Position numbers and translations under genes: made by a program. DNA of 64,000 nucleotides from Mycobacterium sp. UM_WGJ (GTDB taxonomy: Bacteria; Actinomycetota; Actinomycetes; Mycobacteriales; Mycobacteriaceae), in NCBI RefSeq assembly GCF_000455125.1, contig NZ_AUWR01000040.1, forward strand, positions 1 to 64,000, in the 5' to 3' direction. The notes under the pieces were generated by a model. The model saw only the letters and a list, made by a program, of their open reading frames with translations, searched no databases and was not told the DNA's origin. Below, piece by piece: positions 12,226 to 25,546 of the stretch. Within the stretch, counting starts at the first letter, position 1. Each line of letters begins with the position of its first letter.

Positions 12226-14427
12226 CTACGAACTGCCCGCGGGGGTCACGGTCACGTTGACGGTGCCGGGACCGTCCGAGGCGATGATCAGGATCGGGTC
12301 TCCGGGCGCGGACACGATGTGCCCGCCGGTGACACTTACCTGGTAGCCGTCCGGGTATTGGATGGGCGGTACCGAGATCTGGGTCTGGCTGCCGGCGGCG
12401 AAGTGGCCGGAGCCGTTGGCCATCTCGGTGGTGTAGCTGAGTTGGTAGGTGCCCGACGCGAACGACCAGGAGGTCGGGGTGCCGGCGATGGCCTGCGCGT
12501 AGGGCGCCGACGAGACCTCCAGCCTGGACCAGTCGACATTGTCGCCAACGGGTGGCTTGCTCGGGTCGAAGACCAGCGCATTGCCCGGCGCGGTGCCGGT
12601 GATAGCGGGAACGCCGTTGTAGGCCCATTGCGACCAGCCCCACATGCGCTGGTCGGCGGCGTTCATCACCTGGCTGATCTCGGCCGCGCCGTTTGCGGAG
12701 CCGAACTCCGAGATCAGACCCGGGAGGCCGTACTTGCTGGTGTACGCCTCGCCGTTGCTGGCGACGAGTTCGAGGTAGTCCGGGCACCACGGCATGAAGA
12801 TGGAGCCGAAGACGTTCAACATGCAGTAGTCGTGGAATGCGAAGACACCGTGCGGGTCGTCGACCTCACCGAGCTGCGTCGGCAGCGACTGGTTGAACAG
12901 GGCGCTCGGCTCGTAGATGAACGGAGTGGTGGGGTCAACGGAGCGGATCGCCGCGCTCACCTGGTTGTAGAACGGCGTCAGCTGTTGAGCCTCGTAGTAG
13001 GAATTGCCGAATATCGTTGACAGCCAGGAGGAACCCGCCCACGGTTCGTTGATGATCTCGTAGCCGGCGATGTTGGGGTCGTCCTTGAAGTAGTCCGCGA
13101 CGGCTTGGGCCATCCGCGCGTAGTGGTTCAGCAGTCCCACGCCGTCGGGACCTTTGGCGTTGGACCAGAACATGTCCCAGGCGTGATTCTGGGCGGGGTT
13201 CAGCGGGTAGTTGAGCCCGAAGCCGAAGTCGGGGTTGGGCAGTCCGCCGGTCTGGGTGGCCCACTCCGGTGCGCCTTCGCCGCCGAAGACCGGGCTGTAG
13301 TCGTCCTGGTGGAAGTCGATGATGCTGACGATGCCGTACTTGGCCAGGATCTGCACGGTCTGGTCGATCGAGGCCAGATAGTTGTAGTCGATGACGCCGG
13401 GCCGCGGCTCCACGCCCGCCCAGATGACGCCCAGGCGTACCGAGTTGAAGCCGTTGGCGGCCAGGAACGCCGCGTCGTCCTCGTCGAATCCGCCTGCCGA
13501 CGGTTCATAAGGCGCAATCTTGTAGACCTCGTTGAACCCGTGCATGACCAGTACCCGGCCATCGGCATCGGTGATCCAGGTTCCCGCGGTGCTGATCCCC
13601 GCGACGGCTGCCGGTGCGCCGTCAAGAACGCCGAACTGGCCGTGGTCGCCGTGGGCGCCCAGCAGCAGACCGGCGTTGCCGCCCGCGCCGCCGAGGGCGG
13701 GGAGGTCGCCGGGACCGTTGTAGACGCCGTCGCCGGCGTTGCCGCCGAGGCCACCGATGCCCATCAGCCAGCCGCCGTTGCCGCCGTCCCCGCCGTTACC
13801 CCCGAGGTCGCCGTCTGCGCCGTCGCCGCCGTCGCCGCCGTTGCCGACCATGCCGGCGTTGCCTCCGGCACCGCCCATGCCGCCGGAGTCGGTGTTGTCC
13901 CAGCCGTCGCCGCCGTCGCCGTACAGCCAGCCGCCGTGCCCGCCGTTAGGTTGTGCGGCGGTTCCATCGGCGCCGTCGCCGATCAGGGGGCGGCCGGTGA
14001 GCAGCAGCGTGGGTTGGTTGACCAGTCCGAGGAGCAGTTGGCCGAGATCGCTGTTGATCGCCTCTTCGAGGCCGTCGTGGATCGGAGTGTAGAAGTGCTG
14101 CAACAACCAGGTGTTGGGGTCGGCGACGGCGGGGCCGGCTAGGGCGGCGCCGCTCAGTTCGGTCAGGACAGTGTCCCAGTGGGTCGGTGCCAGGAAGGTG
14201 TTCCAGGCCGACGGTGAGAGCATCGCGTCCCAGTCGAGGGTGTTGGTCGTCGCGTCCACGAAGGGTGCGAGGACAGCGTCGAGCGCGTCATCGAAGTCGG
14301 CCTGGGCCGCAGGCGCGGCGGCCAGCGGTGCCATTCCGAAAGTCAGCAGCGCCCCGGTCGAGGCGGCCAGACAGACGACATGTCGGCGCATGGCCGGCTT
14401 TGCTGCGGTGCTGTCGCGACGCATCAT
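12226..14427 (-). CDS. Secreted PGRS protein fused to an endoglycoceramidase-like GH5 domain
   Basis: A 733-residue exported protein without a PE domain. It has a signal peptide (RRHVVCLAASTGALLTFGMA, cleavage after AQA near residue 44), an alpha-helical N-terminal stretch, then a Gly-Gly-X PGRS block (about 140-260, GGNGGDGG-type). A glycoside hydrolase family 5 domain follows (about 290-620) with DFHQDDYSPVF, YEIINEPWAG (acid/base Glu about 461) and LISEFGSANG (nucleophile Glu about 574). A beta-sandwich ends the protein (PYAQAIAGTPTSWSF). HQD, NEPW and this C-terminal block match endoglycoceramidases. Substrate, glycosphingolipid or another glycoside, is inferred. GGAGAGGGG precedes the start. 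Confidence 0.85.
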   Translation of the reverse strand: MMRRDSTAAKPAMRRHVVCLAASTGALLTFGMAPLAAAPAAQADFDDALDAVLAPFVDATTNTLDWDAMLSPSAWNTFLAPTHWDTVLTELSGAALAGPAVADPNTWLLQHFYTPIHDGLEEAINSDLGQLLLGLVNQPTLLLTGRPLIGDGADGTAAQPNGGHGGWLYGDGGDGWDNTDSGGMGGAGGNAGMVGNGGDGGDGADGDLGGNGGDGGNGGWLMGIGGLGGNAGDGVYNGPGDLPALGGAGGNAGLLLGAHGDHGQFGVLDGAPAAVAGISTAGTWITDADGRVLVMHGFNEVYKIAPYEPSAGGFDEDDAAFLAANGFNSVRLGVIWAGVEPRPGVIDYNYLASIDQTVQILAKYGIVSIIDFHQDDYSPVFGGEGAPEWATQTGGLPNPDFGFGLNYPLNPAQNHAWDMFWSNAKGPDGVGLLNHYARMAQAVADYFKDDPNIAGYEIINEPWAGSSWLSTIFGNSYYEAQQLTPFYNQVSAAIRSVDPTTPFIYEPSALFNQSLPTQLGEVDDPHGVFAFHDYCMLNVFGSIFMPWCPDYLELVASNGEAYTSKYGLPGLISEFGSANGAAEISQVMNAADQRMWGWSQWAYNGVPAITGTAPGNALVFDPSKPPVGDNVDWSRLEVSSAPYAQAIAGTPTSWSFASGTYQLSYTTEMANGSGHFAAGSQTQISVPPIQYPDGYQVSVTGGHIVSAPGDPILIIASDGPGTVNVTVTPAGSS

Positions 14428-14531
14428 CGAGCCCCTCTCCACGACAGGGAAACCTGTGTAAAACATGTATGCAGGCCAAAATCTAACTCAACGTACTTTC
14501 GGTAAGGCAAGGATCGCCCAAACGCGAGGGA

Positions 14532-20852: not shown

Positions 20853-21015
20853 GGGCGCATGTTATCGCAGCGTCCGGCTGTGATCGCCGTCTCGACGGCA
20901 GGCCGGAAGGGCCTCCGCAAATCCGGAATGCCCGGTCAACCGCTAGCTTTTGGGCTACAAATACACACACGCCGCTTTGATGCGCCCGGTGTACGCCCCA
21001 GGGAGGGGATCGGTG

Positions 21016-22389
21016 ATGAATTACGCTGCCCTGCCACCGGAGATCAACTCGTTGCGGATCTACACCGGGCCGGGTTCCGCTCCGATGCGCGCCGCGGCCG
21101 CCGCCTGGGGTGGACTCTCCGCCGAACTGCATTCGGCGGTCGCGTCGTACGAATCGGTGATAGCCGAACTGACGGCCCAGGCCTGGCTGGGGCCGGCCTC
21201 GGAGGCACTGACGCGGGCCGGCGCGCTGTACGTGGCCTGGATGAGCGCCACCGCGACCCAGATCGACCACACGACCGCACAGGCGAACGCGGCGGCGGCA
21301 GCCTATGAGGCCGCGCACAGTGCGACGGTGCCGCCGTCGGTGGTGGCGGCCAACAGAGCTCAGCTGATGCTGTTGATCGCTACCAATGTCTTGGGCACCA
21401 ACACCGCGGCGATCGCGGCCAACGAGGCCGAATACGGCGAGATGTGGGCGCAGGATGCGGCTGCGATGTATGCCTACGCCGCGGGGTCGGCGGCCGCCAC
21501 CGGGCTCGCGCCGTTCCAGAAGCCGCCGCAGACCAGCAATCCCGCCGGCCCGGCCAGTCAGGCCGCCTCGGTCGCGACCTCCGAGGCCAGCTCGTCGTCG
21601 TCGGAAGTCCAGTCCCTGCTGGGCCAGCTGGCCTCGGGGATCTTCGGGTCGCAGAACAACTCCCTGCTGCAGACGGCGGCCGCCACGCTGCCCGGGATAG
21701 CGCAGGGTCCCGAGGACCTGCTCACCTGGCCGAGCCTGTCCGACCTGCTGGGCGTGAGCGCGGTGTCGGGGGTGGGGCTGGTCATGGCGGCCGGCGCCTG
21801 GGCGGCGGGGGACGCCAGCACCCGGGAGATTCTGGCCGAGCAGGACCAGTTGCAGCGGGTGGAGTACGAGATCCTGCGCAACATCGACCTGTTCTCCCCG
21901 TTGACCCCGTCGCGGCCGATGGTGCCCGGGGCGTCAACGATGTCGGCGGCGATGGGCGAGGCGATCACCGCGGGCAACCTGTCGGTGCCGATCAACTGGG
22001 CAGCCAACGCGCCGGAGATTCGGAGCCTGTCCTACTCCAAACCGCTGGCCGGACCGGGCCTCGGCGGTGCGCCGGCGGCATCGCTGGGCGCGGCCGGCAC
22101 CGCGTTCAGCCAGATGGCGCTGGCGGGCATGGGGGGCAGCGCCTTGGCCGGCTCGGTCAGCCGCGGCCGCGGGGGCGCTGATGCGGAATCGTCTGCGAGA
22201 GTGCAGATGCCGCAGCGTGCGGCGGCCGACGCGGTGGCTGATTCGCCGGCCGGCGACACCGAGGGCGCCCCCGGGCCGTCGATTATGGGTATCGCCGCCG
22301 AGATCCGCGAATTCGCCGAGCTGCGAGACCGTGGGTTGATCACCAACGACGAGTACAACGAACAGAAGATGCGCCTGTTGGGCCGGTGA
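21016..22389 (+). CDS. PPE-family protein, SVP subgroup, with C-terminal SHOCT-like domain
   Basis: A 457-residue PPE protein. The PPE domain covers about residues 1-180 (MNYAALPPEINSLRIYTGPG, with the AWxGPxS-type WLGPAS near 55). The SVP signature GNLSVPINWA is near 322. The last 32 residues (EIREFAELRDRGLITNDEY, then NEQKMRLLGR) match the SHOCT helical hairpin, not usual in PPE proteins. PPE proteins are exported by ESX type VII systems, usually with a PE partner; no PE gene lies here. The start follows GGGAGGGG at 21001-21008; GTG 21013 is an alternative. Confidence 0.9.
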   Translation: MNYAALPPEINSLRIYTGPGSAPMRAAAAAWGGLSAELHSAVASYESVIAELTAQAWLGPASEALTRAGALYVAWMSATATQIDHTTAQANAAAAAYEAAHSATVPPSVVAANRAQLMLLIATNVLGTNTAAIAANEAEYGEMWAQDAAAMYAYAAGSAAATGLAPFQKPPQTSNPAGPASQAASVATSEASSSSSEVQSLLGQLASGIFGSQNNSLLQTAAATLPGIAQGPEDLLTWPSLSDLLGVSAVSGVGLVMAAGAWAAGDASTREILAEQDQLQRVEYEILRNIDLFSPLTPSRPMVPGASTMSAAMGEAITAGNLSVPINWAANAPEIRSLSYSKPLAGPGLGGAPAASLGAAGTAFSQMALAGMGGSALAGSVSRGRGGADAESSARVQMPQRAAADAVADSPAGDTEGAPGPSIMGIAAEIREFAELRDRGLITNDEYNEQKMRLLGR

Positions 22390-22507
22390 GCGTGTTCCGT
22401 ATTTGCGGCTGATTTTCCTCTCAAGTTCCGCCCTTGTGGATCCATGCCTCGATCGCTAAGCTCCGGCTACTCAGTAGTTGCTCAGGGGTGAGGTCGGGGG
22501 TCGGGAA

Positions 22508-24061
22508 ATGGTCGATCGGGGCAGTAAGGGGCGTCTGGGCAGGAACCGCCATACCCTCGCGGGCGCCTGCCTGGCGCTGGTGGTGGCGCCCACGGCGCCC
22601 GCACACGCCGATTTCGACGACCTGTTCGGGTTCGATCAGCTCTTCGACGCAGCGGATCTGGCTGCCTCCGCGCCGCCCGGTCCGCTCGATGCCACTGAGG
22701 CGCTGGATCTTTCGCAGCTGGTGGGCAACGACATCTACACCTGGGCATCGGTGGTGGAGGTCGTCTTCGCCGGACTGTTCCAGAACCAGCTCTACGCGAC
22801 CGTTCATGACCTCGGCGAGCTGTGGATTCAAGGACCAGGCGTGCTGTTGGATCCGATCATCAACCCGCTCTTCGCTTTTGACGGCGCGTGCGGCTTGATC
22901 TGCAATGGCGTCAACGGCACGGTGGATCACCCGGACGGTGGCGACGGCGGCTGGTTGTTCGGTGACGGTGGCAACGGTTACAACCCGGGCGCCTCCGAAG
23001 ACACCGAACTCGGCGTCAGTGGTGGGGACGGCGGCGACGCGAAGATGCTCGGCAACGGCGGCTGGGGCGGCGACGGTGGAGCCAGTGCCGACGGCGGTGT
23101 CGGCGGGATCGGCGGCTGGCTGATGGGCAACGGCGGTGACGGCGGTTGGGGCGGTGATGGATTGGACAGCATCTCGGGTACCGCCGGCAACGGTGGCGCC
23201 GGCGGGCTCGGGGGCGACGCCATCTCGCTATTCGGCGCGGGCGGGCGTGGTGGTGACGGCGGTGACGGCGGTTGGGGCAACAACGGCGGTGACGGCGGTA
23301 ACGGCGGCGCCGCGGGTGATGGCGGAAACGCGGTGGCCGGCTTCGGTGGCCCCGGCGGCTCCGGAGGCTACGGCGGCAACGGCGGCGACGGCACCGCCGA
23401 ACATCCGAGCGGCGGTAACGGCGGCGACGGCGGGGCCTCTGGAAACGCCGGCAACCTGGTGTTCATGGGCAATGCGGGACCAGGCGGCTTCAGCGCTCCC
23501 GGCGGCAACGGAGGAGACGGCCTGGCCGGGTCTTCCGACGGCAACGGCGGCAACGGCGGCCGCGGCGGCGACAGTGGTTCCGGTGGCTACGGCGGCAACC
23601 CGAGCCACGCTCGCGCCGGCGGTGCCGGCGGCAACGGTGGCGCGGCCGGATCGGCCACCGCCATCGCAGGCAATGGCGGTGCCGGCGGCGATGGCGGTGA
23701 CGGCATGCTCGGCCATCCCAACGGCGGTGAAGCAGGCGGAGGCGGCAAGGGCGGCACCGGTGGCGCCGGCGGCGCCGGAACGGCCGCTCACCCCGATGGC
23801 GGAGCCGGCGGTAAGGGCGGAAACGGTGGCAATGCCGGAGACGGAAACGCCGCGGCGGCCGGTGGCGACGGGGGCTCCGGGGGCGCCGGAGGGGCTGCGG
23901 TCGGGAGCGGATCGGTTGGGCCGGGTGGCCCGGGAGGCAGTGGCGGCGACGGGGGGCAAGGTGTCCCGGGTGGCGCGGGCGGCAAAGCTGGTAGTGGCGG
24001 CGCCGGCGATCCGAATGGTGCTGCCGGCCAACCGGGCAGTCCCGGTGACTCCTTCGGCTAG
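22508..24061 (+). CDS. Secreted PGRS-type glycine-rich protein without PE domain
   Basis: A 517-residue protein. It has a signal peptide (TLAGACLALVVAPTAPAHA), a mature N-terminus DFDDLFGFDQLF, a roughly 100-residue amphipathic region, then from about residue 135 a Gly-Gly-Asn/Asp/Ala PGRS tract to the end, introduced by a GGWLFGDGGNGY block as in PE_PGRS proteins. It lacks the PE domain, so export is probably by Sec rather than ESX. Its N-terminal layout matches the PGRS-GH5 protein. Codon use is dominated by GGC/GGN. Function unknown, probably surface exposed. Confidence 0.85.
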   Translation: MVDRGSKGRLGRNRHTLAGACLALVVAPTAPAHADFDDLFGFDQLFDAADLAASAPPGPLDATEALDLSQLVGNDIYTWASVVEVVFAGLFQNQLYATVHDLGELWIQGPGVLLDPIINPLFAFDGACGLICNGVNGTVDHPDGGDGGWLFGDGGNGYNPGASEDTELGVSGGDGGDAKMLGNGGWGGDGGASADGGVGGIGGWLMGNGGDGGWGGDGLDSISGTAGNGGAGGLGGDAISLFGAGGRGGDGGDGGWGNNGGDGGNGGAAGDGGNAVAGFGGPGGSGGYGGNGGDGTAEHPSGGNGGDGGASGNAGNLVFMGNAGPGGFSAPGGNGGDGLAGSSDGNGGNGGRGGDSGSGGYGGNPSHARAGGAGGNGGAAGSATAIAGNGGAGGDGGDGMLGHPNGGEAGGGGKGGTGGAGGAGTAAHPDGGAGGKGGNGGNAGDGNAAAAGGDGGSGGAGGAAVGSGSVGPGGPGGSGGDGGQGVPGGAGGKAGSGGAGDPNGAAGQPGSPGDSFG

Positions 24062-24097: not shown

Positions 24098-25546
24098 TCA
24101 GCTGAGCTGATCGCGTGCTTCGGGAGCCTCCCAGGTGTGTGGCAGCATCGGCATGCTGGGACCCGCGGCGCTCTCGGTCACGGTGATCAAACCGGTTGCC
24201 GCGGAATCGTTTCCATGGCGCATTGCTCCCGGTAATCCCATCTGTCCCGCGCCGTGTTGTGCGGCCAGAGCGGCTGCTGAGTCGAGGTACTCATAACGGT
24301 TGCCGGGATCGGTCAGGGCTTTGCGCTGCCGGCGGCGGCGGGGTTGGCTCGCGGGAGTGGTGCTGGTTGCCCCCGTCTCGGCCGCATGGCGGCGCTGAAC
24401 CTGCGTGGGCGTGCTCGCGCGCGTTTTCATTCGCGCCCCGCTGGCCGGGCCGGCGCCCACGAGGTAGGGGACGAATGCTGCTGCCTCGGTGCCGGTGAAC
24501 GGCGGCGGAAGTGGCGGGGCGCCACCGGTAACGGTGGCGGCCGGGGCCAGCGCCGGCGGGGCCATAGCCGGGGGAGCTGCCGGAGCGGGAGCCGGCGGGG
24601 CCGGCAGCGCCGGTGGCGCAGCGGTGGCCGCGGGCACCGGCTGTTGCGGGTTCAGGGCGGGCGGCGCCGGTGCGGTGGGGGCGTTGATGCCCGCCAGCCC
24701 GGCGGCTCCGACGAGGCCGACCAGCGGCGACGCGGGTGCGACCAAGCCGAGCATGGTCTCGGTCAGCGCCGTGACCGTCGGTGCCATCCCGAGCACGATC
24801 TCACCCGCGTAGTGCGGGGCGATCGTCATCAGCACCGGATCGCTGATCAGGCTGGTGAGGGGATTGTTGCTGGACAGGTCGGCCTGGATGGCCTCGTTGA
24901 TCTCGGCGATGCGGGTGGTCCACCAGCTCTCCTGGTAGATATTGCCGAAGTCCTGGGTGGGCGCCTGGCCGGTCCGATGCTGGTGGTCGCGATGTTGCGG
25001 GGGGTTGGGATTGAGCACCGTCGGCGCGGTCGACGCTGCCGGAGACGACGCCACCGCGGCGCCGGCCACCACCTGATACGTGGACATCGTGGTGGCCGCC
25101 TGGATCCACATCCGGGTGTAGTCGGCCTCGTTGAGGGCGATCGGAATCGCGTTGATCCCAAAGAAGTTCGTCGCCACCAGCATGGTGTGCAGGGTGTGGT
25201 TGGCGGCCAGCTCGGCCAGTGTGGGCATGGCCGCCAGCGCGGAGGTGTAGGCGGTGGCGGCGGCCTGGTGCTGAGCCGCCAGCGTCATGCTGTCCGCGCC
25301 GGCTTTCGTCAGCCAGGATAGATACGGAACGTTCGCGGCCACATAGGATTCCGCACTCGGACCCTGCCATGATCCCGCCTGCACGGCCGAAAGCATGGCC
25401 GAAAGTTCCTGTGCCACTTCGGTGTATTCCGTGCTCAAGTCGGCCCACATCGCCGCTGCGGCCAGCAATGAGCCCGCGCCCGGGCCGCTACTCAGCAGGG
25501 CTGAGTGCACCTCGGGGGGTGATGCCATCCAGATGGGCTCGGTCAT
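24098..25546 (-). CDS. PPE-family protein, PPW subgroup
   Basis: A 482-residue PPE protein starting [20 protein letters not shown]. The PPE domain (about 1-175) has a [10 protein letters not shown] segment near 58. A Pro/Ala-rich middle follows (about 280-350). The C-terminal subgroup motifs are [19 protein letters not shown] near 355 and PMLPHTW near 470, the latter fitting PxxPxxW. Convergent with the PGRS gene. AAAGGCGG precedes the ATG. No PE gene is adjacent, so its secretion partner must be elsewhere. Confidence 0.88.

Follow-up and report, generated by a model that had tools for sequence, protein, structure and literature searches.

PE_PGRS proteins are usually described as typical of pathogens and as PE/ESX-dependent, with the role of PGRS being a long-standing question. 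In the available text of two papers, nine Mycobacterium tuberculosis PE_PGRS proteins are described as having large C-terminal domains, with PE_PGRS11 containing an active phosphoglycerate mutase (PMC7550000), and PE_PGRS35 is reported to carry a protease domain (PMC9436101). These examples speak against an earlier reading of the DNA considered here (the first-pass annotation), according to which PGRS normally has no enzyme attached. In the "sailing" model of PE_PGRS proteins, as given in the available text, PE is lost after export, the hydrophobic edge of PGRS lies in the outer leaflet and the C-terminal module is found outside (PMC9436101); in an alternative model, the linker is transmembrane and PGRS lies outside (PMC7550000). 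PGRS anchoring is itself, as such, a model. A precedent for swapping of the export module is offered by LipY, in which the enzyme domain lies behind PE, PPE or a signal peptide, depending on the species (PMC7550000); LipY is, however, a lipase, for which PGRS is not mentioned in the available text. PGRS outside of pathogens is seen in M. smegmatis and other Mycolicibacterium, although the available text of a 2025 review calls the N-termini of these proteins questionable and the link to PE in need of confirmation (PMC11939664). The main text of that review contains none of the terms signal peptide, hydrolase, cellulase, glycosyl and glycoside. Judging from the available text of these sources, published precedents exist for attachment of an enzyme to PGRS, for exchange of the export module, as in LipY, and for PGRS in non-pathogens.

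The protein addressed here is encoded in a 64,000-nucleotide stretch of the Mycobacterium sp. UM_WGJ genome, referred to as the window. A frame of 733 residues with zero internal stops runs from 14427 to 12226 on the minus strand (entire gene, 12226..14427), a strand that the first-pass annotation had not given. GGAGAGG lies six bases 5' of the ATG at 14427, and an alternative in-frame ATG at 14466 would yield 746 residues. Residues 1-43 (14299..14427; all features of the gene are on the minus strand) are basic, then hydrophobic, and end in AQA, with D44 next, such that, by inspection, the N-terminus is a putative signal peptide, probably Sec-type but possibly Tat-type, that ends in a predicted signal peptidase I cleavage site (AQA/D). 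An acidic variable segment (residues 44-126; 14050..14298) is followed by an L-GRPLI linker (residues 127-156; 13960..14049) and a PGRS tract (residues 149-262; 13642..13983), in which the Pfam PGRS model (PF21526) matches residues 149-221 (E 4e-12, 46.7 bits, cut-off 27), in agreement with the search of the source genome for PGRS. The remainder comprises the GH5 catalytic domain (PF00150; residues 315-604; 12616..13485; E 7e-24, 85.2 bits, cut-off 23.5) and the C-terminal domain Glyco_hydro_5_C (PF18564; residues 642-727; 12247..12504; E 8e-13). The first-pass annotation had correctly read and numbered the DFHQDD (371-376), INEPW and ISEFG motifs, the latter two containing the acid/base glutamate E461 (13045..13047) and the nucleophile glutamate E574 (12706..12708), respectively. 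Its description of a putative signal peptide, PGRS, an endoglycoceramidase-like GH5 enzyme and a C-terminal domain is likewise borne out by Pfam and sequence, as is the absence of PE, with Pfam not detecting the PE domain PF00934 in the protein.

The GH5 part of the window protein is 81-97% identical in nine loci of at least eight other records of Mycolicibacter, to which the source probably belongs, the closest named record with the gene being M. arupensis DSM 44942 (97%), and 66% identical in M. shimoidei; one extra match corresponds to a 35-residue piece. Orthologues of the gene present dN/dS values of 0.10-0.28 (10 pairs, Nei-Gojobori), reflecting purifying selection; identities and dN/dS values together place the frame far beyond chance. 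That the frame is an artefact was ruled out by these orthologues and their dN/dS values. By Pfam, one flank of the gene comprises a run of hemA, hemC, hemD and hemB, together with a small ORF that matches nothing in Pfam, while the opposite flank contains another such small ORF and a P-type ATPase. Of 14 loci in relatives, some of which correspond to identical or near-identical strains, eight (L036, L040, L041, L042, L044, L122, L123 and L124) retain this order of both flanks, with between one and four PGRS-GH5 copies in the middle. In L039, both small ORFs are present and the sequence stops before hemB, a single flank is seen in L034, L035, L037 and L038, with L037 lacking the hemB side despite approximately 4 kb of sequence there, and neither flank is seen in L043, a short M. 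shimoidei contig.

When the source genome was searched with the window protein, 30 matches were obtained. Two further GH5 copies (C45 and C26) are intact, giving three together with that of the window, while other copies are defective or partial, with C2 being interrupted by a stop, C23 ending at a contig end and C72 being a C-terminal piece. In all 20 N-termini of the family that were aligned from this genome, including that of the window, a hydrophobic segment and A-x-A are present (sites set by pattern), with A41 and A43 being invariant. Next come an acidic segment that varies between members, an Asn conserved throughout (N137) and a glycine-rich lead-in to PGRS, mostly of the form LIG(D/N)GxDG and reading GRPLIGDGADG in the window protein. 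The L-GRPLI linker with its conserved Asn, a hallmark of PE_PGRS proteins, is present in the window protein and matches the linkers of the PE_PGRS proteins L174 and L175, as seen when LVNQPTLLLTGRPLIGDGADG (window) is compared with AVNAPTQALLGRPLIGNGADG (L174). On visual inspection, variation is greater among the N-terminal export parts than in the linker-PGRS-GH5 part, the former including a Mycolicibacter type and, in other genomes, a GRVGGLAVALGIGAALA type that has a long stretch rich in Ser, Thr and Pro.

The same arrangement was seen beyond the source genome. In genome G336, a hydrophobic segment and A-x-A were found in 32 of the 32 PGRS ORFs inspected, the 42 PGRS matches of this genome also including six PGRS-GH5 genes treated separately and four long ones left out. 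Weaker evidence comes from genomes G322, G337 and G343, where A-x-A lies near a hydrophobic segment in 15 of 17 ORFs (L176-L192), L179 and L182 being the exceptions. PE_PGRS11 and PE_PGRS35/PecA have an L-GRPLI linker, PGRS and a C-terminal enzyme in common with the window protein, which differs in bearing a signal peptide rather than PE and in its endoglycoceramidase-like GH5 cargo. What is odd about the window protein is the signal peptide where PE would be, and not the enzyme behind PGRS.

The absence of PE was considered at several levels. Pfam found PGRS, GH5 and GH5_C in all 54 PGRS-GH5 proteins scanned, including that of the window, and PE in none (set A2, 54 of 87 PGRS-GH5 rows), while BLASTP with two PE domains yielded no PE match in 119 GH5 ORFs. 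As these ORFs extend from stop to stop, the idea that PE was overlooked through a wrong gene start was rejected. N-termini are visible in 81 of the 87 rows, with the remaining six ending 5' inside the gene. In eight genomes with PGRS-GH5, none of 134 PGRS matches, which include some under the Pfam cut-off and ORFs matched twice, starts less than 2.9 kb from any of 63 PE matches; the source genome is spread over 116 contigs, such that a PE domain past a contig end would be missed. As positive controls, two other genomes of the genus (G256 and G387) were treated likewise. Now, among the matches listed, PE was found directly 5' of PGRS in one frame, as exemplified by the matches at G256:C1:204542 and 204896 in the same 693-residue frame. 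PE was also found in none of the 49 ORFs of L142-L192 once the PE_PGRS controls L174 and L175 were set aside. As a separate observation, G256 and G387, with PE_PGRS, carry plain GH5, and the eight PGRS-GH5 genomes showed no PE_PGRS, a split between genomes that possibly reflects phylogeny alone. It was also noted that in the E. coli control genome, the PE Pfam model yields matches above its cut-off.

GH5 is not the sole cargo of signal-peptide PGRS proteins. DUF2599 was found in L021 and L172 (in the source genome, it is carried by the family member C51), a carboxymuconolactone decarboxylase-family domain (CMD) was found in L142, and the aspartyl peptidase-like PE-PGRS_C domain was found in L150, L176 and L177, hence in G336, G337 and G343, with the linkers of L176 and L177 reading GRPL(V/I)GNG. 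PE-PGRS_C, a Pfam family named for PE_PGRS proteins, was matched in 36 of 98 genomes, and a PE-bearing ORF, not always demonstrably the peptidase's own ORF, was present at 16 of 33 PE-PGRS_C loci. Taken with the signal peptides of L150, L176 and L177, this indicates that one cargo can be found with either export signal.

To place the window protein among its relatives, the distribution of the enzyme was addressed. A match to endoglycoceramidase-like GH5 at E 1e-20 was found in 52 of 201 genomes of the family, representing 14 of 31 genera, and in 56 of the 248 genomes sampled from the GTDB genus. These 56 comprised 39 with PGRS-GH5 (at least 400 aligned residues), nine with plain GH5 and eight with shorter pieces that were dropped; not all copies were fetched and only the best six or fewer candidates per genome were scored, such that copies are under-counted, with G336 holding at least two further copies (L144 and L152). 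The architecture noted in the first-pass annotation accordingly recurs in other mycobacteria, namely, in 39 of the 248 genus genomes. A search with the N-terminal part (A1), scoring the best 13 candidates per genome, matched 112 of the 248 genomes, a number that does not equate to a count of signal-peptide PGRS proteins since PE_PGRS linkers can match the query.

In a quick tree of 117 rows containing several long branches, the 87 PGRS-bearing GH5 rows formed one clade (SH-aLRT 99). Its sister group (support 97) consisted of nine rows from this genus in which a signal peptide precedes GH5 and PGRS is lacking; the 21 rows fetched from other genera, which likewise lack PGRS, fell outside. A one-off fusion is ruled out by the 87-row clade. 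The tree included 117 of the 119 GH5 ORFs, the truncated duplicates L007 and L010 having been left out. The 87 rows derive from 39 of the 248 sampled genus genomes and five named records, with records overlapping between sets (e.g., L034 and L123), and their PGRS label reflects a glycine-motif count, Pfam-confirmed in 54.

The solved structure nearest to the window GH5 domain is that of endoglycoceramidase I (EGCase I; PDB 5ccu; E 1e-56, 196 bits), followed by that of endoglycoceramidase II (EGCase II; 2osw; E 4e-36, 128 bits). Sterylglucosidase SglA (8exd), which we take to be a GH5_12 member, gave only a weak partial match (E 2e-6 over 75 residues). In this PDB sequence comparison, the window domain is nearer to EGCase I and II than to SglA, which lends no support to the GH5_12 branch name earlier attached to it. 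Residues at both catalytic positions differ among the solved chains, with A opposite E461 in 2osy where 2osx and 2osw have E, and S opposite E574 in 5j14/5j7z where 5ccu has E; 2osy and 5j14/5j7z are presumably active-site mutants of the solved enzymes. Across 117 aligned GH5 domains, nine of them from EGCase I-like rows, the E461 position is E in all, the E574 position is E in 110 and G in the other seven, and H373, Q374, D375, W389, E461, W598, W601 and Y603 are common to at least 95%. The window protein resembles EGCase I in having a GH5 domain with the two catalytic glutamates, a C-terminal domain and predicted secretion, but differs in that 5ccu lacks PGRS and belongs to a separate clade, scoring 196 bits with the window domain as opposed to 702 bits with the EGCase I-like L070. 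EGCase II, of which 2osx is listed under GH5_28 (PMC3526467), shares GH5 with an aligned acid/base glutamate and a C-terminal domain, yet is more distant (128 bits) and likewise has no PGRS.

These likenesses bear on the possibility that the window protein is a true endoglycoceramidase by which the bacterium would feed on glycosphingolipids from amoebae, fungi, plants or animals, freeing the oligosaccharide and leaving the ceramide to be split by a neutral ceramidase. EGCase I and II being the nearest solved relatives and the eight residues so widely held in common would fit such activity, as would the one neutral ceramidase found in the source genome, which is compatible with sphingolipid use, if weakly so, the search having covered the source genome. 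By contrast, with the endoglycoceramidase I equivalog NF051847 (EndGlycCerase), the window protein scored 271.8 bits, below the 700-bit cut-off, as did five other proteins that are not EGCase I-like (L065, L057, L061, L052 and L053), whereas the control, L070, scored 823 bits. Moreover, 17 alignment positions consistently separate mycobacterial from EGCase I-like rows, four of these being gaps in the latter. No characterized member of the PGRS-GH5 clade was found, such that polysaccharides or other beta-glucosides may also be substrates. A true endoglycoceramidase is, as such, a possibility with perhaps one chance in three. Given the NF051847 score below cut-off, together with EGCase I/II being closer than the GH5_12 relative, any substrate is a guess; the endoglycoceramidase likeness earlier proposed stands at the level of the domain (5ccu, 2osw), not at that of the equivalog, and the substrate had rightly been marked as inferred.

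The Pfam name of the domain, Cellulase, and the available text of a paper describing PE proteins of other mycobacteria with predicted glucanase domains (PMC4758615) raise the prospect of a surface-bound beta-glucanase or diglycosidase that digests oligosaccharides of plant or fungal origin and has nothing to do with lipids. Such a role appears improbable, with endoglucanase matches being local and far weaker (3nco E 3e-5, relative to E 1e-56 for 5ccu) and the GH5_C domain being present in 54 of 54 proteins.

Our favored and, in our estimation, probable reading is that the window protein is a PGRS-tethered GH5 beta-glycosidase of the mycomembrane that acts on glycosylated lipids, although export route, anchoring, activity and substrate are all inferred. 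A Sec-type signal peptide would export the protein, with cleavage after residue 43, leaving a mature protein consisting of linker, PGRS and enzyme. The L-GRPLI linker and the PGRS sandwich would then anchor this protein in the outer mycomembrane, in the manner suggested for PE_PGRS proteins after removal of PE. PGRS would thereby display a retaining beta-glycosidase, with E461 as acid/base and E574 as nucleophile, at a lipid surface, where it may cut a beta-linked sugar-lipid bond. A tether at a lipid surface would suit an endoglycoceramidase-like enzyme, and candidate substrates include environmental, protist, host or own lipids, with a glycosylceramide-like class seeming the most likely.

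Were the substrate instead a beta-glycosylated lipid of the cell's own envelope, trimmed by an enzyme kept beside it by PGRS, a mycomembrane tether would fit a resident substrate, and the presence of PGRS-GH5 in 39 of 248 genomes, the purifying selection and the three intact copies in the source genome would also be in keeping. Yet most sampled genomes are without PGRS-GH5, Pfam detected no lipid-synthesis gene among nine neighboring ORFs, three of which lack any match, and no own substrate was identified. Trimming of an own lipid is, accordingly, deemed unlikely, if only a little more so than activity as a true endoglycoceramidase.

Seven of the 87 PGRS-GH5 rows share the complete set of R331Q, D371Y, N460A, H532Q, Y534F and E574G changes, while retaining E461. 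These form a monophyletic sub-clade (support 100) supplied by five genomes, namely, the source genome (L011, i.e., C2), G264 and G412 with two copies each, G360 and G367; in terms of loci, L127 and L129 contribute two copies each and L130 and L134 complete the group. Pairwise dN/dS values in the sub-clade are 0.12-0.30 (21 pairs, Nei-Gojobori), indicating that the GH5 domain has been kept despite loss of the nucleophile. Judged from these residues, the E574G sub-clade is a conserved pseudoenzyme, in which the domain would bind rather than cleave. As a separate matter, the source-genome copy (C2:9812-12139) is split by an in-frame stop, with the GH5 frame being open in six relatives. The pseudoenzyme clade offers a separate handle on which glycolipid gets bound.

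Whether the window protein could also be chiefly a binder, serving as a lectin or adhesin with catalysis being incidental, as is apparently so in the E574G sub-clade, was considered in this light. A sub-clade with six active-site changes under purifying selection lends the idea some sense, but at each of the eight positions compared, the window copy carries the usual residue, making such a role very improbable for this protein. Returning to the favored reading of a tethered, active glycosidase, a broader and more tentative proposal, to which we assign slightly less than even chances, can be put forward. PGRS and L-GRPLI may together comprise a portable surface-display platform without PE, exported via a signal peptide and bearing diverse enzyme cargo, with the PE_PGRS proteins of pathogens having arisen by PE replacing the signal peptide, and with one PGRS-GH5 lineage having turned into a conserved pseudoenzyme that probably serves as a glycolipid receptor at the surface.

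Among the literature matches listed, considered by title and the start of the abstract, nothing dealt with PGRS-GH5 proteins, with endoglycoceramidases of mycobacteria, with genomes in which PGRS occurs solely in signal-peptide form or with the pseudoenzyme clade. Some genomes of the present set hold as many as 42 PGRS matches, none of them with a PE match nearby, and pair PGRS with signal peptides and enzymes. This pattern predicts that the N-termini of M. smegmatis PGRS proteins will prove to be signal peptides with no PE, and renders PGRS anchoring testable in a laboratory strain.

Finally, the window encodes a second signal-peptide PGRS protein on the plus strand (22478..24061), for which PGRS was the sole domain found by Pfam and which was also identified in the search of the source genome for PGRS. 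This ORF sits between two ORFs (20950-22389 and 24098-25546) that, judged by eye, are PPE-like.
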